From: an uncultured beta proteobacterium
GTDB taxonomy: Bacteria > Pseudomonadota > Gammaproteobacteria > Burkholderiales > Burkholderiaceae_C
DNA length: 64,000 bases
Assembly (NCBI GenBank): GCA_903930255.1
Contig: CAIYYA010000255.1
Coordinates: 1-64,000 of the forward strand
Direction of reading: 5' to 3'
Part shown: positions 3 to 63,936 of the stretch, piece after piece
Layout: the number at the start of each line of letters is the position of its first letter
Numbering within the stretch: position 1 is the stretch's first letter
Position numbers and translations under genes: made by a program
Notes under the pieces: model-generated
The model's database searches: none
The model's input: the letters and a program-made list of their open reading frames with translations, nothing else
Told to the model about the DNA's origin: nothing

Positions 3-467
3 GAACAACTACTTGCCGAGTGCAACCTGCACACCATCGTGCGCCTGCCCAACGGCGTGTTTGCGCCCTACACCGGCATCAAGACCAACCTGCTGTTCTT
101 CACCAAAGGCACGCCCACCCAAGACGTTTGGTACTACGAGCACCCGTACCCCGCAGGCGTGAAGAACTACAACAAGACCAAGCCCATCCGCATCGAAGAG
201 TTTGATGCCGAGAAAGCCTGGTGGGGCAGCGAGGCGGATGGCTTTGCAGTGCGTGTGGAGAACGAACGCGCGTGGAAGGTCAGCATCGACCAGATCAAAG
301 CCGCCAACTACAACCTCGACCAGAAGAACCCCCACGCCGCAGATACCGTGAGCCACGACCCCGAGCAACTGCTGGCCGATTACGCGCGACTGCAAGGTGA
401 GGCGCAGGCACTGCGGGATGAGTTGAAAGACATATTGGTGAAGTCCTTGGGTGACTTGCAAAAATAA
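3..467 (+). CDS. hsdM: Type I restriction-modification DNA methyltransferase subunit HsdM, C-terminal part (gene begins before window)
   Basis: Open frame from window start (EQLLAECNLHTIVRLPNGVFAPYTGIKTNLLFFTKG...); HsdM C-terminal sequence style; hsdS lies downstream. Confidence 0.88.
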   Translation, partial: EQLLAECNLHTIVRLPNGVFAPYTGIKTNLLFFTKGTPTQDVWYYEHPYPAGVKNYNKTKPIRIEEFDAEKAWWGSEADGFAVRVENERAWKVSIDQIKAANYNLDQKNPHAADTVSHDPEQLLADYARLQGEAQALRDELKDILVKSLGDLQK

Positions 468-479
468 CCAAGTAGGTTA
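465..479. promoter_or_regulatory. Putative MqsA operator palindrome TAACC-aagta-GGTTA
   Basis: Perfect 5-bp inverted arms overlapping the hsdM stop codon, 7 nt before mqsR; resembles the AACCT-Nx-AGGTT MqsA operator known from E. coli. Confidence 0.5.
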
Positions 480-485
480 ATAATC

Positions 486-782
486 GTGGAAAAATCAACA
501 CCGCATTGCAAGCTACAGGTTGTGAAAGCCTTGCTGGATGCCGGAAAGTTTCAAGTGACGCGCACCGCACGCAACGGTGCAGCGGCATTGGGTTTTGACT
601 ATCCGGGCATGTTGGCAGTGGTCGCAGCTTTGCAGTTGTCAGACTTTTACAAAAGCATGACCACGCACGCTGACCACACCGTTTGGCAAGATGTTTACCG
701 CGCGGCTACGCCACTGGGCGACGTGTATCTGAAGCTAACGGTGGTGGATGATTTGTTGATCGTCTCTTTCAAGGAACTATGA
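486..782 (+). CDS. mqsR: MqsR-family type II toxin (mRNA interferase)
   Basis: 98 aa, MEKSTPHCKLQVVKALLDAGKFQVTRTARNGAAALGFDYPGMLAVVAAL...; directly followed by an MqsA-like gene. Confidence 0.85.
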   Translation: MEKSTPHCKLQVVKALLDAGKFQVTRTARNGAAALGFDYPGMLAVVAALQLSDFYKSMTTHADHTVWQDVYRAATPLGDVYLKLTVVDDLLIVSFKEL

Positions 783-783
783 C

Positions 784-1182
784 ATGAAATGCCCAAGCTG
801 CGGCGCTGCCGAACTGATCCACGACACCCGTGACGAAACGTACACCTACAAAGGCGTCAGCACAGTCATCCCCGCCGTCACCGGAGACTTCTGCCCTGCT
901 TGCGCCGAGTCGATTCACGATGGCGCTGAAACGGAACGCGTGATGAAAGAAATGAGCGCATTTCAGCGCCAAGTCAACGCCGCGTTTGTTCCCCCCAGCT
1001 TCATCACCGACATCCGCAAGAAGCTAGCCCTGGACCAGCGCGAAGCCGCTGAAATTTTTGGTGGCGGTGTCAACGCCTTCTCGCGGTATGAAACTGGCAA
1101 AACCAAACCTCCGCTGGCGCTGGTGAAGCTGCTCAAGGTGTTGGACCGCCACCCGGAGCTGCTGGCCGAGGTGCGGGCTTGA
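784..1182 (+). CDS. mqsA: MqsA-family antitoxin (N-terminal zinc CPxC pairs, C-terminal Xre-type HTH)
   Basis: MKCPSCGAAELIHDTRDETYTYKGV...DFCPAC plus HTH ...ITDIRKKLALDQREAAEIFGGGVNAFSRYETGKTKPP. Confidence 0.88.
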   Translation: MKCPSCGAAELIHDTRDETYTYKGVSTVIPAVTGDFCPACAESIHDGAETERVMKEMSAFQRQVNAAFVPPSFITDIRKKLALDQREAAEIFGGGVNAFSRYETGKTKPPLALVKLLKVLDRHPELLAEVRA

Positions 1183-1219
1183 GATTTTCTATTGAATTGG
1201 CCTCTAGCCCCCGTGGAAT

Positions 1220-2917
1220 GTGCGCATGCTGCTATCAAATGTGAATCTATTGGCGAAAGCCCCAAATGGCGTGGCGCGTCTGCGCGAGCTGATTTTGACG
1301 CTGGCCGTGCAAGGCAAGCTGGTGCCGCAAGACCCGAAGGACGAACCGGCGAGTGAATTGCTGAAGAAGATTCGGGTGGAGAAAGACCGGCTGATTGCCG
1401 AGGGCAAGATCAAGCGTGACAAGCCGCTGGCGGAGATTGCGGAGGAGGAAATGCCGTTCTTGCTGCCTTCGGGTTGGGAATGGGAAAGATTTGGCGCGAT
1501 CGCTGGTATTGAGCGTGGTGGTTCGCCTCGCCCAATTGACTCATTTCTGACGGACGATCCTGATGGGTTGAATTGGATCAAGATCGGGGACACAGAAAAA
1601 GGTGGAAAGTACATCACCTCTGCCAGCCAGAAGATTAGGCGAGAAGGTTTGGTGAAGACGCGAATGGTTTTCCCAGGCGACTTTCTCCTCACGAACTCGA
1701 TGAGCTTCGGGCGCCCGTACATAACTCAAATTGAAGGGTGTATCCATGACGGATGGTTGCGCATCAGTCCGCCAAGTTCTCTGAACAAAGATTATCTTTA
1801 TCTGTTGCTCTCGTCCCGGTTCATTCGCACCGTTTTCGAAGCAGCAGCGGCTGGTGGTGTCGTACTGAACCTGAATGCAGACAAGGTTCGCACGGTTCCA
1901 ATTCCGCTGCCGCCGCTCGTCGAACAATCCCGCATCGTCACCCGCGTGGAAGAACTCATGCGCCTGTGCGACGCGCTCGAAGCCAAAGGCCAGCTCGAAG
2001 CCACGCAACACACCCAGCTCGTCAGCACCCTGCTGGCCACGCTCACCGACAACGAAACGCCCGCGCAACTGACTGAGAACTGGCACCGCATCGCCACCCA
2101 CTTCGACCTGCTGCTAGACCGCCCCCAGGCCGTGGACGCGCTGGAGCAAACCATCCTGCAACTCGCAGTGCGCGGCCTGCTCGTCCCCCAAGACCCGCAA
2201 GACGAACCCGCCAGTGAACTATTGAAGAAAATCCGCGCCGAGAAAGACAAGCTCATCGCCCAAGGCAAGATCAAACGCGACAAACCCTTGCCGCCGATTG
2301 CGGAAGACGAACAGCCGTTTGCGTTGCCGCCGGGATGGGAGTGGGTGCGAATTGAGACACTGGCAGATGTCGGAACCGGAACGACACCATCCCGAGACAA
2401 CGTGGCTTTTTTCGCCAATGGTTCGATACCGTGGGTTACCAGCGGTGAAACAGGCAAGCCGTTCATTGCTGAAACTGCTCAGCACGTTACTGAGTTTGCC
2501 CTTTTACAAACCAATTTAACGGTCTACCCGGTTGGGACACTGGTTCTGGCAATGTATGGGCAAGGCAAAACGCGGGGGCAAGTTTCGGAACTGCAAATTG
2601 AAGCAACGACAAACCAAGCATGTGCAGCCATTGTGCTCGTAGAGCAGTCGTTGGCACATCGCAGTTTCGTTAAGCTTGTGTTTGAAAAGAGCTACGACAA
2701 GATACGTCAGCTTTCCGCAGGTGGCGCGCAGCCAAATTTGAATGTCGGAAAAATCAAAGCGACGTTGATCCCCCTCCCGCCCCTCGCCGAACAATCCCGC
2801 ATCGTCACCCGCGTAGCCCAGCTGCGCCGCCTGTGTTCCGACCTGCGCAAGCGCCTGACCGCCAGTCAATCCACCCAAGCCCATCTGGCCGAGGCGTTGG
2901 TTCAGGATGTTGCGTAG
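1220..2917 (+). CDS. hsdS: Type I restriction enzyme specificity subunit HsdS
   Basis: 565 aa with two repeated conserved regions (LVPQDPxDEPASELLKKIRxEKD...GWEWxR and IPLPPLxEQSRIVTRV) flanking two variable target-recognition regions. Start is GTG 1220 or ATG 1226. Confidence 0.92.
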   Translation: MRMLLSNVNLLAKAPNGVARLRELILTLAVQGKLVPQDPKDEPASELLKKIRVEKDRLIAEGKIKRDKPLAEIAEEEMPFLLPSGWEWERFGAIAGIERGGSPRPIDSFLTDDPDGLNWIKIGDTEKGGKYITSASQKIRREGLVKTRMVFPGDFLLTNSMSFGRPYITQIEGCIHDGWLRISPPSSLNKDYLYLLLSSRFIRTVFEAAAAGGVVLNLNADKVRTVPIPLPPLVEQSRIVTRVEELMRLCDALEAKGQLEATQHTQLVSTLLATLTDNETPAQLTENWHRIATHFDLLLDRPQAVDALEQTILQLAVRGLLVPQDPQDEPASELLKKIRAEKDKLIAQGKIKRDKPLPPIAEDEQPFALPPGWEWVRIETLADVGTGTTPSRDNVAFFANGSIPWVTSGETGKPFIAETAQHVTEFALLQTNLTVYPVGTLVLAMYGQGKTRGQVSELQIEATTNQACAAIVLVEQSLAHRSFVKLVFEKSYDKIRQLSAGGAQPNLNVGKIKATLIPLPPLAEQSRIVTRVAQLRRLCSDLRKRLTASQSTQAHLAEALVQDVA

Positions 2918-2988: not shown

Positions 2989-4110
2989 ATGCACAAAGTT
3001 ATCCACAGCGACAACGTCAAATCCGCTATCCAGAAGCTGGGTTGGACCCAGAAAGAACTGGCTGCGCAGTTGGGTGTAACAGGTCAAGCTGTTACCAACT
3101 GGATGAAGGGAACAGATTTCCCCCGCCCCGACAAGCTACTCAAGCTTGCAACCACTCTGAAGCTGGGGTTTGCCGAATTGGTGCAGTTGCCCCAAGCCGC
3201 TCAGCCTGTCGTGGCATTTCGCAAAAAGGCTGGGGCCAAGACGACTGACGCACATGTTTCCAAAGCCATGGCGATGGGTGCGCTCCTCAAAGGCTTAGTC
3301 CCGTTTCTACCGACTCTGCCGCAATTGCGCCGCCAAGTGCCCAACCCCAATACTGATTACGTCGCCTTGCAGGCTGTTGCGGCGCAGGTGCGCGCAACCC
3401 TGGGTTTGACCCAAGGCGCGGTGCTGCATTACGGACACTTGCTGGGTGAGTTTGTCGAGAACGGTGCTGTGGTCGTGCCGGTGATGTGGGGCAGTCAGCA
3501 AAACCACAAAAACGCACTACACATCCTGTTACCGCAAGAGCGTGTAACGTTTATTTTGTTGAACTTGGATACGTACCCGGAGGACTTCAAGTTCTGGATG
3601 GCACATGAATTGGCGCATGTGTTTACGCCAGACCTTGCAGGCAAGATAGAGGGTGAAGACTTTGCCGATGCATTTGCGGGTGCGTTGTTGTTTCCTGTGG
3701 AGTTGGCCCGTACGGTGTACGAAAAGGCATCTGGTGGTAATAAAACTAATGAGTCAAAGGTGTTGCAGGCATTTGCGGCCGAACATGGCATTTCTTTGTT
3801 TAGCGTTTTCAATGAAGCAAATCGTTTTGCGCAAGCCAACGGCCTGCCTCCGTTAAAACACGACGCAACAGAGATACATGCCATTCGCAACGCACAACGC
3901 GGCAAACTGGTGAGTGAGATGTTGTTTGCGCCATTGCCGCCCGAACCGTCGGTCTATGTGGCTGCTGCTGAAAAGCAATTTAAGAGTCCGTTCTTTTACG
4001 CCTTGCGCCGCATGGTGAAAGAGCAGCAAACGGGTGCTGGATACATTCAGCAAGTTATGGACATTCCTATGCAGGATGCAGCGGCACTGCATAAGGAATT
4101 GGCTCGGTGA
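2989..4110 (+). CDS. Xre-family HTH protein fused to ImmA/IrrE-type zinc metallopeptidase domain
   Basis: N-terminal HTH (LGWTQKELAAQLGVTGQAVTNWMKG), HELAH zinc motif, downstream GEDFADAFAGALLFP. Confidence 0.85.
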   Translation: MHKVIHSDNVKSAIQKLGWTQKELAAQLGVTGQAVTNWMKGTDFPRPDKLLKLATTLKLGFAELVQLPQAAQPVVAFRKKAGAKTTDAHVSKAMAMGALLKGLVPFLPTLPQLRRQVPNPNTDYVALQAVAAQVRATLGLTQGAVLHYGHLLGEFVENGAVVVPVMWGSQQNHKNALHILLPQERVTFILLNLDTYPEDFKFWMAHELAHVFTPDLAGKIEGEDFADAFAGALLFPVELARTVYEKASGGNKTNESKVLQAFAAEHGISLFSVFNEANRFAQANGLPPLKHDATEIHAIRNAQRGKLVSEMLFAPLPPEPSVYVAAAEKQFKSPFFYALRRMVKEQQTGAGYIQQVMDIPMQDAAALHKELAR

Positions 4111-4692
4111 CAACCCAGGTCCTGCTGGACACCAACACCTACCTTCGGCTTGCAAAACGAATACGTCCGGCTGTAGGGCGGAAGTTCGGGCAGGTGCCTT
4201 ATGTACTGGTCATCCTCAAGGCGGTGGAAGACGAGGTGCACCGAAGTGCGCGGTTGAGATTTCTAAATCCGTGGTTTGATGAGCCTGAAATTTGCGCAAG
4301 AGCGAATGGCAAAGCAAACTCGGCTCAGTGCAGCGGAAAAACAGGACTTGAAGCTGGTGCAAGACGTGCTGCGGGGCACAGTTCAGTTGGATGTTGCCAA
4401 GTACACAACCGGTCGTTCACCACCGGGGGCCACGGATTGCTGGTTGCTGGCATACGGTCAAGTCAAGGATGCCATTGTGGCAACCGATGACTTGGGCATG
4501 CATACGCTGGCGGCAGACTTTGGTCTTAAGGTTTGGCATGGATTTGAGTTGTTGGCAAAACTCAAATCAGCGAAGGTAGTAGACAACGATCTGATCCGCG
4601 ACATCTACGATGCATTGGAGCGCAACGGCGATATGACTGAAACTTGGCGCAAGGCCAAGTACAGTGAGTTCGCGAGAATCTTTGGCGTTTAA
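4107..4692 (+). pseudogene. PIN-domain protein interrupted by a single frameshift (possible toxin partner of the Xre-ImmA gene)
   Basis: Frame 4107.. encodes TTQVLLDTNTYLRLAKRI...PWFDEPE. The shifted frame to 4692 encodes FAQERMAKQTRLS...GATDCWLLAYGQVKDAIVATDDLGMHTLAADFGLKV. Removing one nt in the gAAATTTg tract at 4287-4293 joins them. GTG start overlaps the upstream TGA (GTGA). Confidence 0.7.
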
Positions 4693-6307: not shown

Positions 6308-6355
6308 AAAAATAAGGCTTTAGCGCTTGCTACATAAGCGCCAACAGCTATGTTA
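6308..6355 (+). repeat. Dispersed repeat 'ALAPV element' copy (intergenic, upstream of mmsA)
   Basis: aaaataaggctttagcgcttgctacataagcgccaacagctatgtt; translates K-A-L-A-L-A-T-*-A-P-T-A in the coding-type frame. Confidence 0.65.
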
Positions 6356-6404
6356 AGCATAGCGCGTTCCAAGCCGCGCCACAGCGGGTTCAGGCCGTTA
6401 CCAG

Positions 6405-16116: not shown

Positions 16117-16131
16117 GATAATTTACTACAA

Positions 16132-16183
16132 AAATTGAAGCAGCTTACGCTTTCTGGATAAGCTTTAGAGGCATATTTATTGC
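16132..16183 (-). repeat. Dispersed repeat 'ALAPV element' copy (overlaps the stop codon of the HD-GYP gene)
   Basis: aaattgaagcagcttacgctttctggataagctttagaggcatatttattg; closest to the 63.0-kb copy. Confidence 0.65.
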
Positions 16184-17353: not shown

Positions 17354-20300
17354 TCATTCAGTGAGTTGGATACGGGCCTGCGCAGCGGCTTTGCTAAGTG
17401 TGCTCAGTGCCTCTGAAAAGTCATAGTTGTGCACCTGCTGCTGCAGCAGCTCAAAGGCTTCACCCAAACCCAGGCGAAACAGCGCCTCTTGCGATTGCAG
17501 CAGCATTTCAGCTTCGACGCTATCCGCTTGCAACAGGTCCAGCAGTTGCTGGCTCTGTTGCTGCAGTTGCAACGCATCGACCACGGTTGTACTTGGCAGA
17601 TTGACAGGTGTGCAATCGGGTGCCAAGGCCAACCGCAAACCCTGTTCGAGCTCAAACAGGTGTGTTAAAAGTTGCGCGCACAAAGCGCTGGGCGTGTTCA
17701 CCTGGCCAGTTTGCGCAACGGTCTGGTTCAATAGGTGCTCGACTTCGGCGCACAGGGTGCTGCATTGGCTGGCACCAATGTTGCCGGAAACCCCTTTGAG
17801 GTTGTGCACCATGCGTTCGGCGTGCTCAAGCTCACCCGCCGCGAGCGCTTGCTGCAACAGCTGCGGCAGGCGGCGGATGCTTTGAAAAAACTTGGCCAGC
17901 AAGTTTTGATACAAGGCCTTGTTGCCAGCGCACAGGCGTAACCCCAAGGCAGTGTCAACACCGGCAATGCGCAGATCGAGCAACTGATTTGCTTCAAATT
18001 CTGTAGCTTTCTGCGCTTGCTGGACGGGCGCTAGAGCCCAATTTTGTGTTGATTCTAGGCGTGATTTCAAGGACAAATCAGTCACCGGTTTACCCCAGTC
18101 TGCCAAGCACTTGTAGAGCGTGTCGGGGTCAATTGGTTTGCTCAGATGGGCGTTCATGCCCTCGCTCAAACAGCGTTGGGCTTCCTGTGCCGAGGCGTGG
18201 GCAGTCAGGGCAATAATGGGCAAGTCGTTAAAACGCACCTGCTGGCGTAGCGCCAGGGTGGCTTGGTGGCCGTCCATCACCGGCATTTGCAGATCCATCA
18301 GCACCAGCGACCAGGGCAGCAAATCGCCGGCATCTTGCAGCAGGTCGAGTGCTTGTTGACCGTTGTCTGCCAGCATCACTTGCACGCCCATCGACTCCAT
18401 CAGCTCACGCGCAATTTGCTGGTTGATCTCGTTGTCTTCAACCAGCAGAACGCGCAGACCAGCAAGTTTCTCGTTTGAATGGGTTGCCAGTGTGCTGGCT
18501 TGCAAAGTCACCGACTCGGGGTGAATCAGGCCGACCAGTGTGTCCCACATGCGCGATTGGCTGACCGGTTTGTCCAAAATTGCACGGGCGCCAGCTTGGG
18601 TGCCGGCATTGCGAGCTTCGTCGGCTCCAAAAGCGGTCACCATCACCACCGCAGGCTGATGCGTTAGCGTGGGGTCTTGCACAATGCGCCGGGTTGCTTC
18701 GATGCCATCCACGCCGGGCATTTGCCAGTCCATCAGCACCAATTCATAGGGGTCTTGCAAATCAGCGCTGTGCAAAGCGTTGAGTCCCGCAATGGCGTTG
18801 CTGGCTGCATCTACGCGCAGGCCCAAGCTGGTCAGTTGCTCGATCAGAATTTGTCGGGCCGTGTCGTTGTCGTCCACCACCAGTGCACGGATATTTCGTT
18901 GCATCGGCGACCTGACCGGTGCATGAGCTTGCTGCTCGGGCAGGTCGAACCACGCCGTCAGGCTGAATGTGCTGCCCACGCCGGGTTCAGAAACCACCGC
19001 AATCTGCCCGTCCATCATTTCAACAAAACGCTTGGAAATTGCCAGACCCAAGCCGGTGCCGCCAAAGCGACGTGTGGTGGAGCTATCGGCCTGTGAGAAT
19101 GACTTAAACAAACCACTGCATTGCTTTGCCGTCATACCAATGCCGGTGTCGGCCACTGAAACCTTCAACTGCACCCGATTCAAATCGTATGCCTGTCCCG
19201 TCATTCCTTGCTGACGCTGCCCCACCTCCAGCGTCAGCGTCACCTGGCCTCGCTCGGTAAATTTAATGGCGTTACTGGTCAGGTTGGTCAATATCTGCTT
19301 AAAACGTGTGGCATCGCCGATGAGTGCTTGGGGTACGTCGGGTTTCACCCTGATCAGGAATTCAAGACTCTTTTCTTGGGTTTTGGGCGCAACCAGTGTG
19401 CTCAAACTGTCCAGCACGTTGTCGAGCCAAAAAGGGGCTGACTCGAGAGTCATTTTGTCAGCTTCAATTTTTGAATAATCCAGAATGTCGTTGATGATGC
19501 CGAGCAACGCCTTGCCTTCTGAATTGATTTTTGACAGGTAGTCACGCTGTCGGTCTGACAGCTCGGTTTTTAGCGCTAGGTGCGACAAACCAATCACGGC
19601 ATTCATGGGCGTGCGAATTTCGTGACTCATGTTGGCCAGAAATTCGCTCTTGGCGCGCGTGGCTTGCTCTGCTTGCTGCTTGGCCTGCTCTGCCACCTCA
19701 AATTGAAGCTGCAATTCATGGGCCTGGCTTTTCAGCTCTTCTTGCTGCATGCGCAACTCTTCCTCAGACTGTTGCAAATCGTGCGCCTGCTCCTGGGTTT
19801 GCGTGAGCAAGTCACGCGTGACCCGGTTGCGCTCCAAAATTTCCAGACTCAGCGCCACCAGCGGCAACATTTCGTTGAGTAGCGCCTGATGGCGTGCGTC
19901 AAACGCGTTGACTGTGCACAACTCCATAACGCCCAGCACTTTGCCTGTGACCGCGCTGACGACGGGAACAATGCGCACGCTGCACGCCAGGGTGTCGAGC
20001 ACGCCAGAGTGCACGCGCATCTGGTGCTGGCTGACCGGTGCAACATCGATCGCCTTGGCCTGCAGGGCACATTGCCCAACCAAACCTTCGCCCAGTGCGA
20101 ATGTCGGTGTTAAGGTGTTGCTAGCAGCCACACCTGCACCGCCTGCAAAGTGGTAACTCTGTAGGCGCTGGTTCCAGACATACAGCAGCCCGGTCTGTGC
20201 GCCGGTCAGTGGGGTCAATTGCGTCATCAAGGTGCCAGCAAATTCATTGACGCGATCAATCGATAAGACACTGGATGAGATGGTGGCTGTGTTGGATTTG

Positions 20301-54929: not shown

Positions 54930-56627
54930 ATGCAGAAAATACAAATATCCCATTTCAGGCGGCACTGGCGAGCGCATTGCTTCGTTGCTCATCGCTTTTG
55001 TGGTCTTGCCATACCGCACTCTGAAGGCCTAGCGTTGCATCCCTCCAGCACTCGCCAAAAACGGAACATTTGCAATTTCTGCATCTCTAATTTGTTCGCA
55101 TTGCTCGCGGGTGCGCTGCTCGCCGCCAGCCTGGCCTGGCCAACCAGCGTGCCGCAAGCCCTTGCCCCACTTGGGTTGGTGCAGGGACAGCCGCTCTGGT
55201 GGGGGGCTTGCCTGGCCATGACCGTGTTGGCAGGCTTGCTGGATTCGAGCCAGAGCTGGCGCACGGCGGCTCTGCGCGGTTGGCTCTTTGCCACGGCTTG
55301 GCTGGCTTGCACCTTCGGCTGGCTGTTTACCTCGATGCATACCTATGGCGGATTAAGCGCTCCGCTGGCTTTGTTGGCCGTCATCATTTTGGCTGGATTT
55401 TTGGCAATTTACTATGCGTTTTTTTGTGGTTTGTATAAGGCGCTAGCGCCCGTCAATCAAGCGCTAAGCGCTCTTTGTTTTGTAGCGACTTGGTTGCTTG
55501 CAGAGCTCGCACGAGGTGTCTTGCTGAGCGGGTTTGGCTGGGGCTCAGTGGGTTATACGCAGTTGGATGGCCCTCTTGCAGGGTGGCTGGCTTGGCTGGG
55601 TGTATATGGTTGCGGTGCCTTCGTGGCGAGTTTGGCGGCCTTGCTGGCGCTGGCTTGGCGCACGTCGAACGGGCGCCGCGCCGCTGGCCTGGCTCTGGGT
55701 TCGCTCGCTTTGCTGCTCTCGGGCACCCTGTTGCCGCAGCTGCAAGGCGCTAGCGCCGGACTATTGAACGTCACATTGCTGCAAGGCAACATCGCGCAGG
55801 AAGAAAAATTTGAAGCCAGTAGCGGTGTGCCCAAGGCGCTGCGCTGGTATGGTGAGCAACTTCAGGCCAGCCGCAGTGCGCTCATCATTACCCCCGAGAC
55901 TGCGCTGGCCTTGCTGCCCGAACAACTGCCAGATGGCTACTGGCAGGCTTTGCAACAGCGCTTTGCCACGGGAGAGCAGGCTGCCCTGGTGGGAATTCCG
56001 CTGGGCAGTTATACCGAAGGCTATACCAATTCGGTGGTTGGCTTGAAACCGGGGCAAGCTGCACCCTGGCGTTACGACAAGCACCATCTGGTGCCGTTTG
56101 GTGAGTTCATTCCGCCGTTTTTTCGCTGGTTTACGAATCTGATGCACATTCCCCTGGGTGATTTCAGCCGGGGTGCTTTGCCGCAACCGAGCTTTGAATG
56201 GCAAGGCCAGCGATTGGCGGCCACTATTTGTTATGAAAATCTGTTCACCGAAGAACTCGCCACGCAGTTCGCCGATGCAGCGCTGGCACCGACCATTCTG
56301 TTCAACATCAGCAATATGGGCTGGTTTGGCGAGAGTCTGGCAATGAACCAGCATCTGCAAATTGCCCGCATGCGTGCACTGGAATTTGGCCGCCCTTTTT
56401 TGCTGGCTACTAACACAGGTCAAACAGCCATCGTCAACTACCAGGGCAAGGTTACGCACCTAGCTCAAGCGCATGTGGCAACAGCGCTGCACGGTGTGGT
56501 TGAAGGGCGCACGGGTTTCACGCCCTATGCCGGCTGGGTTTCGCAATTCGGACTCTGGCCACTGTGGCTGTTCGGGTTGGGGGTGTTGGGGGCATTGCAT
56601 TGGACGCGAAAACATCGATCACTTTGA
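54930..56627 (+). CDS. lnt: Apolipoprotein N-acyltransferase (true start probably downstream of ORF start)
   Basis: LITPETALALLPEQLPDGYW, LVGIPLGSYTEGYTNSVVGL, KHHLVPFGEFIPPFFRW, ICYENLFTEELA. Confidence 0.92.
   Translation: MQKIQISHFRRHWRAHCFVAHRFCGLAIPHSEGLALHPSSTRQKRNICNFCISNLFALLAGALLAASLAWPTSVPQALAPLGLVQGQPLWWGACLAMTVLAGLLDSSQSWRTAALRGWLFATAWLACTFGWLFTSMHTYGGLSAPLALLAVIILAGFLAIYYAFFCGLYKALAPVNQALSALCFVATWLLAELARGVLLSGFGWGSVGYTQLDGPLAGWLAWLGVYGCGAFVASLAALLALAWRTSNGRRAAGLALGSLALLLSGTLLPQLQGASAGLLNVTLLQGNIAQEEKFEASSGVPKALRWYGEQLQASRSALIITPETALALLPEQLPDGYWQALQQRFATGEQAALVGIPLGSYTEGYTNSVVGLKPGQAAPWRYDKHHLVPFGEFIPPFFRWFTNLMHIPLGDFSRGALPQPSFEWQGQRLAATICYENLFTEELATQFADAALAPTILFNISNMGWFGESLAMNQHLQIARMRALEFGRPFLLATNTGQTAIVNYQGKVTHLAQAHVATALHGVVEGRTGFTPYAGWVSQFGLWPLWLFGLGVLGALHWTRKHRSL
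55431..55485 (+). repeat. Dispersed repeat 'ALAPV element' copy inside lnt
   Basis: ttgtataaggcgctagcgcccgtcaatcaagcgctaagcgct encodes YKALAPVNQALSA. Confidence 0.65.
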
Positions 56628-62168: not shown

Positions 62169-62232
62169 ATATTGCTATATTAATTGAAGCTGCTGACGCA
62201 TTCTGCATAAGCGCTAGAGCCCAATTATTCAA
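62169..62232 (-). repeat. Dispersed repeat 'ALAPV element' copy between gmhB and plsC
   Basis: attgctatattaattgaagctgctgacgcattctgcataagcgctagagcccaattattc; reverse strand would read NNWALALMQNASAAS. Confidence 0.65.
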
Positions 62233-62976: not shown

Positions 62977-63936
62977 ATGCATCCGCTGCTGCGCTTTACA
63001 CTGGATTTGTTTGGGTCAAATATGCCTCTGGCGCCCGTACAAAAAGCGCCAGTAGCTATTGATAAAAGAGAAAAAACCCCACCCCCAACCAGGCCACCCA
63101 GGTTGCGAGCTCCGGTGTCAGCACCCGGCAGCGAGTCGTCCAAGGGGTTATTTCCAGCTAATTTTCACCATCCACAAGCCAATCGCCAAGCACATTTGGG
63201 CGAAGTGCTGGTCGCCTATGCGTTCAAACGTGCGCAACGGCGCAGCATCGGGTTTAGCGTGGGTCCGCTGGGCCTGGCGGTGCGTGCCCCCAAATGGACA
63301 CCGCTGCATGCCGTGGATGCAGCCCTGCAAGACAAAGCCGCTTGGATTTTGCGCAAACTGCACGAAACCAGCACGCGCCATGCTCAACAAGAGGCACAGG
63401 TGATCGATTGGCGCGACGGTGCCAGCATGCTTTATCTGGGGCAACCCATCACGCTGCATCTCGATCCGGAGCAAGGCTTTGGCGCTGCAGCTGCGCAATT
63501 GATCGCTGTGGATGCGCATGGCCAGGGCGCAACGCCTTCAGCCTCCATGCGTTTGCATATTGGGCTGACGCACAGCGCAAGCGCCGAACAGATTCGGGAT
63601 GCGGTGCAAGCCTGGCTGATGCGCCAGGCGCGTGCGCTTTTTCAGCAGCGACTCGAGCACTTTGCGCCCCAACTCAATGTGCAATGGAAAAAACTCAGTT
63701 TGAGCAGCGCCCGCACACGCTGGGGCAGTGCCCGCGCCGATGGCTCAATTCGCTTGAACTGGCGCTTGCTGCATTTCGAAATGAGGCTGATTGACTATGT
63801 GGTGGTGCACGAACTTAGCCATCTGCGGGAAATGAACCACAGTCCGCGATTTTGGGGCGCGCTGGCACAGGTTTTACCTGACTATGCTGCCCTGCGCCGA
63901 GAACTCAAAAGCAAAATTGCACCGCATTGGGGCTGA
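62977..63936 (+). CDS. YgjP/SprT-like zinc metallopeptidase-family protein
   Basis: RTRWGSARADGSIRLNWRLLHFEMRLIDYVVVHELSHLREMNHSPRFW. Confidence 0.88.
   Translation: MHPLLRFTLDLFGSNMPLAPVQKAPVAIDKREKTPPPTRPPRLRAPVSAPGSESSKGLFPANFHHPQANRQAHLGEVLVAYAFKRAQRRSIGFSVGPLGLAVRAPKWTPLHAVDAALQDKAAWILRKLHETSTRHAQQEAQVIDWRDGASMLYLGQPITLHLDPEQGFGAAAAQLIAVDAHGQGATPSASMRLHIGLTHSASAEQIRDAVQAWLMRQARALFQQRLEHFAPQLNVQWKKLSLSSARTRWGSARADGSIRLNWRLLHFEMRLIDYVVVHELSHLREMNHSPRFWGALAQVLPDYAALRRELKSKIAPHWG
63017..63068 (+). repeat. Dispersed repeat 'ALAPV element' copy in the N-terminal coding region of the YgjP/SprT-like gene
   Basis: aaatatgcctctggcgcccgtacaaaaagcgccagtagctattgataaaag encodes NMPLAPVQKAPVAIDK. Confidence 0.7.

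Follow-up and report, generated by a model that had tools for sequence, protein, structure and literature searches.

A probable toxin-antitoxin exchange slot between hsdM and hsdS, occupied by mqsRA, in a Comamonadaceae Type I restriction-modification operon

The mqsRA genes described here probably represent one occupant of a toxin-antitoxin (TA) exchange slot at the hsdM/hsdS junction of a Comamonadaceae Type I restriction-modification (R-M) operon, with the gene order hsdR, hsdM, slot, hsdS, and carry their own MqsA-controlled promoter reading into hsdS. The state of the slot varies among close relatives, and the slot sits at a copy of a repeat found genome-wide. In the mechanism that we propose, free MqsA would bind positions 465-479 and silence the internal promoter. 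Loss of MqsA, or its sequestration by MqsR, would let transcription start at about 485-490 and continue across mqsRA into hsdS. These transcripts would supplement the read-through that begins upstream of hsdM, and derepression would raise mqsRA and hsdS jointly. Where the coupling of hsdS to hsdM is lost, the supply of the S subunit would lean more on the internal promoter. Recombination at the repeat or close to it would bring in the cassettes and exchange them. The locus provides a concrete case of TA or small defence modules nesting in restriction operons, with a defined junction, a repeat, empty and filled versions, and turnover. If the mechanism is true, HsdS supply would follow the state of the antitoxin, and the cell's capacity for modification and restriction would be linked to TA activity.

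The mqsRA pair and its predicted operator

The window (the whole stretch of DNA analysed) comprises the initial 64 kb of contig C255, from an assembly of 377 contigs, and the closest HsdM relatives of its R-M locus were from Comamonadaceae. Open reading frames and Pfam matches confirmed the co-directional order hsdM, mqsR, mqsA, hsdS given in a preliminary description of this DNA. The visible 3' end of hsdM (positions 3-467, plus strand, 154 aa; Pfam N6_Mtase 6e-18, and junction comparison) is cut by the contig start and finishes with a stop codon at 465-467. It is followed by mqsR (486-782, plus strand), encoding a predicted GC-specific RNase toxin (Pfam MqsR_toxin PF15723, 8e-34), and by mqsA (784-1182, plus strand), encoding a predicted zinc-binding antitoxin and repressor with a helix-turn-helix (HTH) domain (MqsA_antitoxin PF15731, 7.5e-62; TIGR03830, 1.8e-45, above the cut-off). 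After a gap of 43 bp comes hsdS (1226-2917, plus strand; Methylase_S 4e-28), with two target-recognition domains; it occupies the place behind mqsA from which a SecB-like chaperone gene is absent. The gene hsdS was correctly recognized in the preliminary description, but its start was placed at GTG 1220, and comparison with relatives favoured ATG 1226 instead (ATGCTGCTATCAAAT, MLLSN...).

Both TA proteins aligned over their full length with E. coli structures in the PDB, their nearest relatives of solved structure (MqsR with 3hi2, 7e-32; MqsA with 2kz8/3gn5/3o9x, 2e-39). Read from the alignment, MqsR keeps H7, K56, Q68, R72, Y81 and K96, among which K56 and Y81 are reported as essential in E. 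coli (PMC9636575). MqsA has the zinc-binding CxxC pairs (C3, C6, C37, C40) and the C-terminal HTH, and retains N97 and R101, which contact DNA (PMC5422877). Given that the essential toxin residues and the DNA contacts of the antitoxin are present, the genes look like an intact MqsRA type II TA pair, as judged by domains and residues. The start codon of mqsR is GTG, compared with ATG in five other intact slot copies. Counts of GCU, the MqsR cleavage site, were 33 in hsdS (26 when shuffled) and 14 in mqsA (6 when shuffled).

The palindrome TAACC-AAGTA-GGTTA at 465-479, which takes in the hsdM stop codon exactly as first described and ends 6 bp before mqsR, is very probably an MqsA operator, judging from its sequence and published MqsA sites. 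It was the sole match in the window with one mismatch allowed, although 0.44 such matches are expected per 64 kb and the presence of one is therefore unremarkable. The DNA preceding mqsR was examined in loci drawn from the family, order and class. Of the 97 mqsR genes that lie outside R-M loci, 61 had AACC-N5-GGTT no more than 60 bp upstream (shuffled control: mean 0.055, maximum 1). As most mqsR genes are preceded by this site, a chance palindrome can be ruled out. The E. coli MqsA site is AACCT-N3-AGGTT (PMC4894380), and in Pseudomonas putida MqsA binds TTAACCT-GGA-AGGTTAA in electrophoretic mobility shift assays, whereas the MqsR:MqsA complex does not (PMC5422877). This shared geometry, the recurrence of the site and the position of the predicted promoter all strengthen the earlier proposal of an MqsA-type operator.

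That promoter, a sigma70-like TTGCAA-17-AATAAT at 456-484 (plus strand) predicted from sequence only, was the sole promoter-like site within 380-1400. Its -35 hexamer (456-461) doubles as the last hsdM codons, its -10 hexamer lies at 479-484, and the palindrome falls between them. The -10 is so near the start codon that the mqsRA mRNA may be leaderless. The usual layout upstream of free mqsRA is TTGCCA ... TAACCaactaGGTTAaAAT n6 ATG, where the palindrome again separates the -35 from the -10. Stand-alone mqsRA share this promoter. The overlap of operator and hsdM stop reflects no special wiring and simply results from a promoter-bearing cassette having joined hsdM. Scanning 380-1400 revealed no promoter-like site directly before hsdS, and the stretch from the mqsA stop to hsdS had neither a hairpin nor a terminator-like site. 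On the plus strand, two weak terminator matches fall within the mqsR and mqsA coding sequences, with 3 found against 1.4 expected (sd 1.4), which is within chance. It is plausible that MqsA also sets hsdS supply; whether the control would be measurable is, in our estimation, evenly balanced.

Occupancy and structure of the hsdM/hsdS junction

The junction was surveyed in the 80 closest HsdM relatives, most of which are represented by metagenome-assembled genomes (MAGs). It is empty in many of them. The preliminary description had suggested looking elsewhere for the order hsdM-mqsRA-hsdS, and six other records have it (L053, L076, L086, L092, L099 and L102), which makes an assembly artefact at the contig edge unlikely, though these records are mostly MAGs. 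Other junctions hold PhdYefM and PIN (L073, L075, L084, L085), FitA and PIN (L085), RelE and HigA (L052, L061), or MNT-HEPN (L055, L063, L069, L087, L091, L097; the MNT gene alone in L099). Positions checked by tblastn placed each slot TA gene on the hsd strand, mostly at full length; in L053, mqsR is broken and mqsA intact. Taken together, these occupants very likely mark the junction as a slot at which TA cassettes are exchanged.

Presence of a TA cassette changes at least 17 times, and that of mqsRA 7 times, on an HsdM tree that is weakly resolved (420 columns). The mqsRA genes in slots form two lineages, and a single ancient insertion was rejected for L102, which belongs to another mqsRA lineage (AU p = 0.005). 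Some cassettes also carry palindromes of their own before the first TA gene, namely GTAGTG-N5-CACTAC for Phd-PIN (L073, L075, L084) and TGCCAC-N3-GTGGCA for RelE-HigA (L061, L052), and in L052, L061, L073 and L075 the palindrome is located right at the end of hsdM or close to it. HsdM and HsdS were not found within about 5 kb of free mqsRA when the window proteins were used as tblastn queries; the arrangement therefore seems limited to this R-M lineage, at the tblastn sensitivity used. Two side observations concern the same gap. In L061 (6483-7472) and L052 (2695-3603), the RelE-HigA cassette is followed by an mqsA remnant, the relic of an earlier cassette that was replaced. At the repeat-free junctions of L065, L066, L067, L080, L082, L093, L095 and L123, the space between hsdM and hsdS is taken up by YhcG nuclease and/or RhuM-Fic genes.

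Empty junctions typically read ...KSLASPR-TGA, with the hsdS ATG 8 nt on, while hsdM in the window ends in ...KSLGDLQK-TAA in place of the KSLASPR* typical of empty-slot relatives. The segment TTGCAAAAATAA encodes LQK* and contains the cassette -35 and the start of the operator, and the end of hsdM in empty-slot relatives, CTAGCCCCCGTTGAATGTGCGC, has its counterpart in CTAGCCCCCGTGGAATGTGCGC behind mqsA. Comparison of these ends shows a cassette that joined hsdM within the last codons and kept its own predicted MqsA-type promoter and operator, the old hsdM tail surviving as a vestige before hsdS. With the insertion, the distance from the hsdM stop to the hsdS start grew from 8 nt to about 760 nt, and translational coupling between hsdM and hsdS should consequently be lost; coupling of this kind is known for EcoKI (PMC3510504).

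A dispersed repeat at the junction and the remainder of the locus

A copy of a dispersed repeat of about 55 bp (1192-1246, plus strand) spans the right edge of the cassette and the hsdS start. It scored 48.8 bits (E 3e-14) against repeat model R1, which was built from ten copies including this one. R1 copies number at least 150 in the own genome and at least 150 in the single-contig congener G122; other congeners have from 0 to at least 150, and eight genomes of other families have none, placing the repeat, among the genomes tested, only in some members of one genus. Further copies in the window are at 6309-6362, 16126-16179, 17991-18046, 55443-55486, 62175-62228 and 63015-63069. We call the repeat only REP-like because the junction copy has no significant hairpin (z = -0.17) and overlaps coding ends.

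Within one and the same HsdM group, the repeat occurs at empty junctions as well as at filled ones. Of 42 junctions carrying the repeat, 19 held a TA insert, against 0 of the 36 that lack it (p = 1e-6), but just three independent pairs exist and shared ancestry may therefore explain the association. In L055, L063, L069, L084, L087 and L099, MNT-HEPN and Phd-PIN cassettes are flanked on both sides by direct repeats of 33-99 bp, and in L099 and L085 cassettes stand in tandem with the dispersed repeat between them. The mqsRA cassette in the window is flanked by the repeat on the right but not on the left. Free mqsRA, considered as repeat-bearing donors, had no repeat directly behind mqsA. For both reasons, the recombination route proposed for this cassette is a guess. 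We offer as a tentative idea, towards which we lean rather less than away, that repeat copies at hsd junctions could act as integrase-free docking sites where promoter-bearing TA cassettes are swapped by recombination, re-wiring HsdS supply to the resident antitoxin.

The R-M locus of this genome is split over three contigs: the window holds the hsdM 3' end and hsdS, and hsdR and the hsdM 5' end lie on C232 and C75. We infer the contiguity of these parts with C255 from the relatives L053 and L054. A second cassette, an AAA-ATPase and PIN pair (PADLOC PDC-M07), lies between hsdR and hsdM (L263, G000:C75, 1451-3691), bracketed by a 134-bp direct repeat that is 94% identical overall, with about 100 bp identical. 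Each 134-bp copy includes the first hsdM codons and a portion of the dispersed repeat, which points to a recent duplicative insertion at a repeat copy as the probable origin of this cassette. Behind hsdS is a second TA-like pair, consisting of an HTH gene with an M78 (ImmA/IrrE-like) domain assigned by Pfam (2989-4110, plus strand) and a frame-broken partner (4107-4692, plus strand). The partner is visible as overlapping frames of 127 and 138 aa, is an intact 196 aa in L054, and had no Pfam or PADLOC match; the frame break may be an assembly error or mark a pseudogene. The pair recurs behind hsdS in L054, L057, L068 and L077.

Alternative explanations and comparison with known systems

We weighed three other accounts of the mqsRA insertion. 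The junction could be a tolerant insertion point, offering a dispensable hsdM tail and a repeat copy, where a self-regulating mqsRA hitchhikes neutrally and leaves both hsdS and the retention of the R-M locus unaffected. The identical promoter and operator layout of free mqsRA, with nothing R-M-specific in the operator, agrees with this account, as do the empty slots of many relatives and the decay or replacement of slot copies (the broken mqsR of L053; the mqsA remnants of L052 and L061). However, a neutral site should collect other genes in both orientations, and all identified occupants of repeat-bearing junctions are TA modules co-directional with hsd, leading us to regard neutrality as unlikely. 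We consider it more improbable still that mqsRA serves as an addiction module or anchor, penalizing loss or recombination of the R-M locus through post-segregational toxicity. A central position in the operon, intact catalytic and DNA-contact residues and the presence of several different TA families at one site would all suit such a role, yet copies with a dead toxin, or reduced to a remnant, are still found next to hsdS (L053, L052, L061), and the repeated changes of TA presence on the HsdM tree imply that cassettes are readily lost or swapped. The suggestion in the preliminary description that loss of the R-M locus would be toxic is weakened in the same way by decayed copies, by empty slots and by other TA families in the same place.

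A TA cassette expressed together with R-M could also serve as an abortive-infection back-up, in the manner of DarTG2 in the Type I island of enteropathogenic E. coli (EPEC). The DarTG2/RptR precedent (PMC12255303) favours such layered defence, as does the agreement of the MNT-HEPN (PDC-M05) and AAA-ATPase/PIN (PDC-M07) occupants with PADLOC defence candidates, and MqsRAC, with its SecB-like chaperone, protects E. coli from T2 (PMC9519451). The pair in the window, however, has no chaperone gene, with only 43 bp separating mqsA from hsdS, and plain MqsRA has no documented phage-defence role according to the same report (PMC9519451); we think this explanation doubtful for mqsRA.

The mqsRA operons of E. 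coli K-12 and P. putida KT2440 share with the pair in the window a toxin-first order, the catalytic and zinc-binding residues, the HTH contacts N97 and R101, and an AACC-N5-GGTT operator in the promoter. They are stand-alone operons, whereas the pair described here lies inside hsdM-hsdS, with a -35 and an operator that, unlike theirs, overlap hsdM codons and stop; the window has one palindrome where E. coli has two (PMC4894380). The chaperone-dependent MqsRAC system (TAC) differs in the SecB-like gene that follows mqsA. Known REP-type repeats resemble the repeat described here in being short and of high copy number (at least 150 per genome) but are repetitive extragenic palindromes, unlike the hairpin-poor junction copy overlapping coding ends. 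In PADLOC, PDC-M05 and PDC-M07 correspond to occupants of this locus family, and mqsR had no match. Searches of the open-licence literature returned no report of mqsRA within hsd genes and no description of a common TA exchange slot at a dispersed repeat.

The nesting of TA genes in Type I R-M operons is already known in kind from DarTG2, which is embedded in the EPEC operon under RptR at a site suggested as a potential recombination hotspot (PMC12255303). Both cases place a TA module inside a Type I R-M operon, and both have a repressor, predicted in the case of MqsA, with palindromic sites at the -10, but DarTG2 is located between hsdS and hsdR and mqsRA between hsdM and hsdS. RptR is a dedicated repressor governing the EPEC island from the front, where the window has the antitoxin's own predicted internal promoter. 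The slot in the window further differs from the DarTG2 site in accommodating several alternative TA families and in having a dispersed repeat at its junction.
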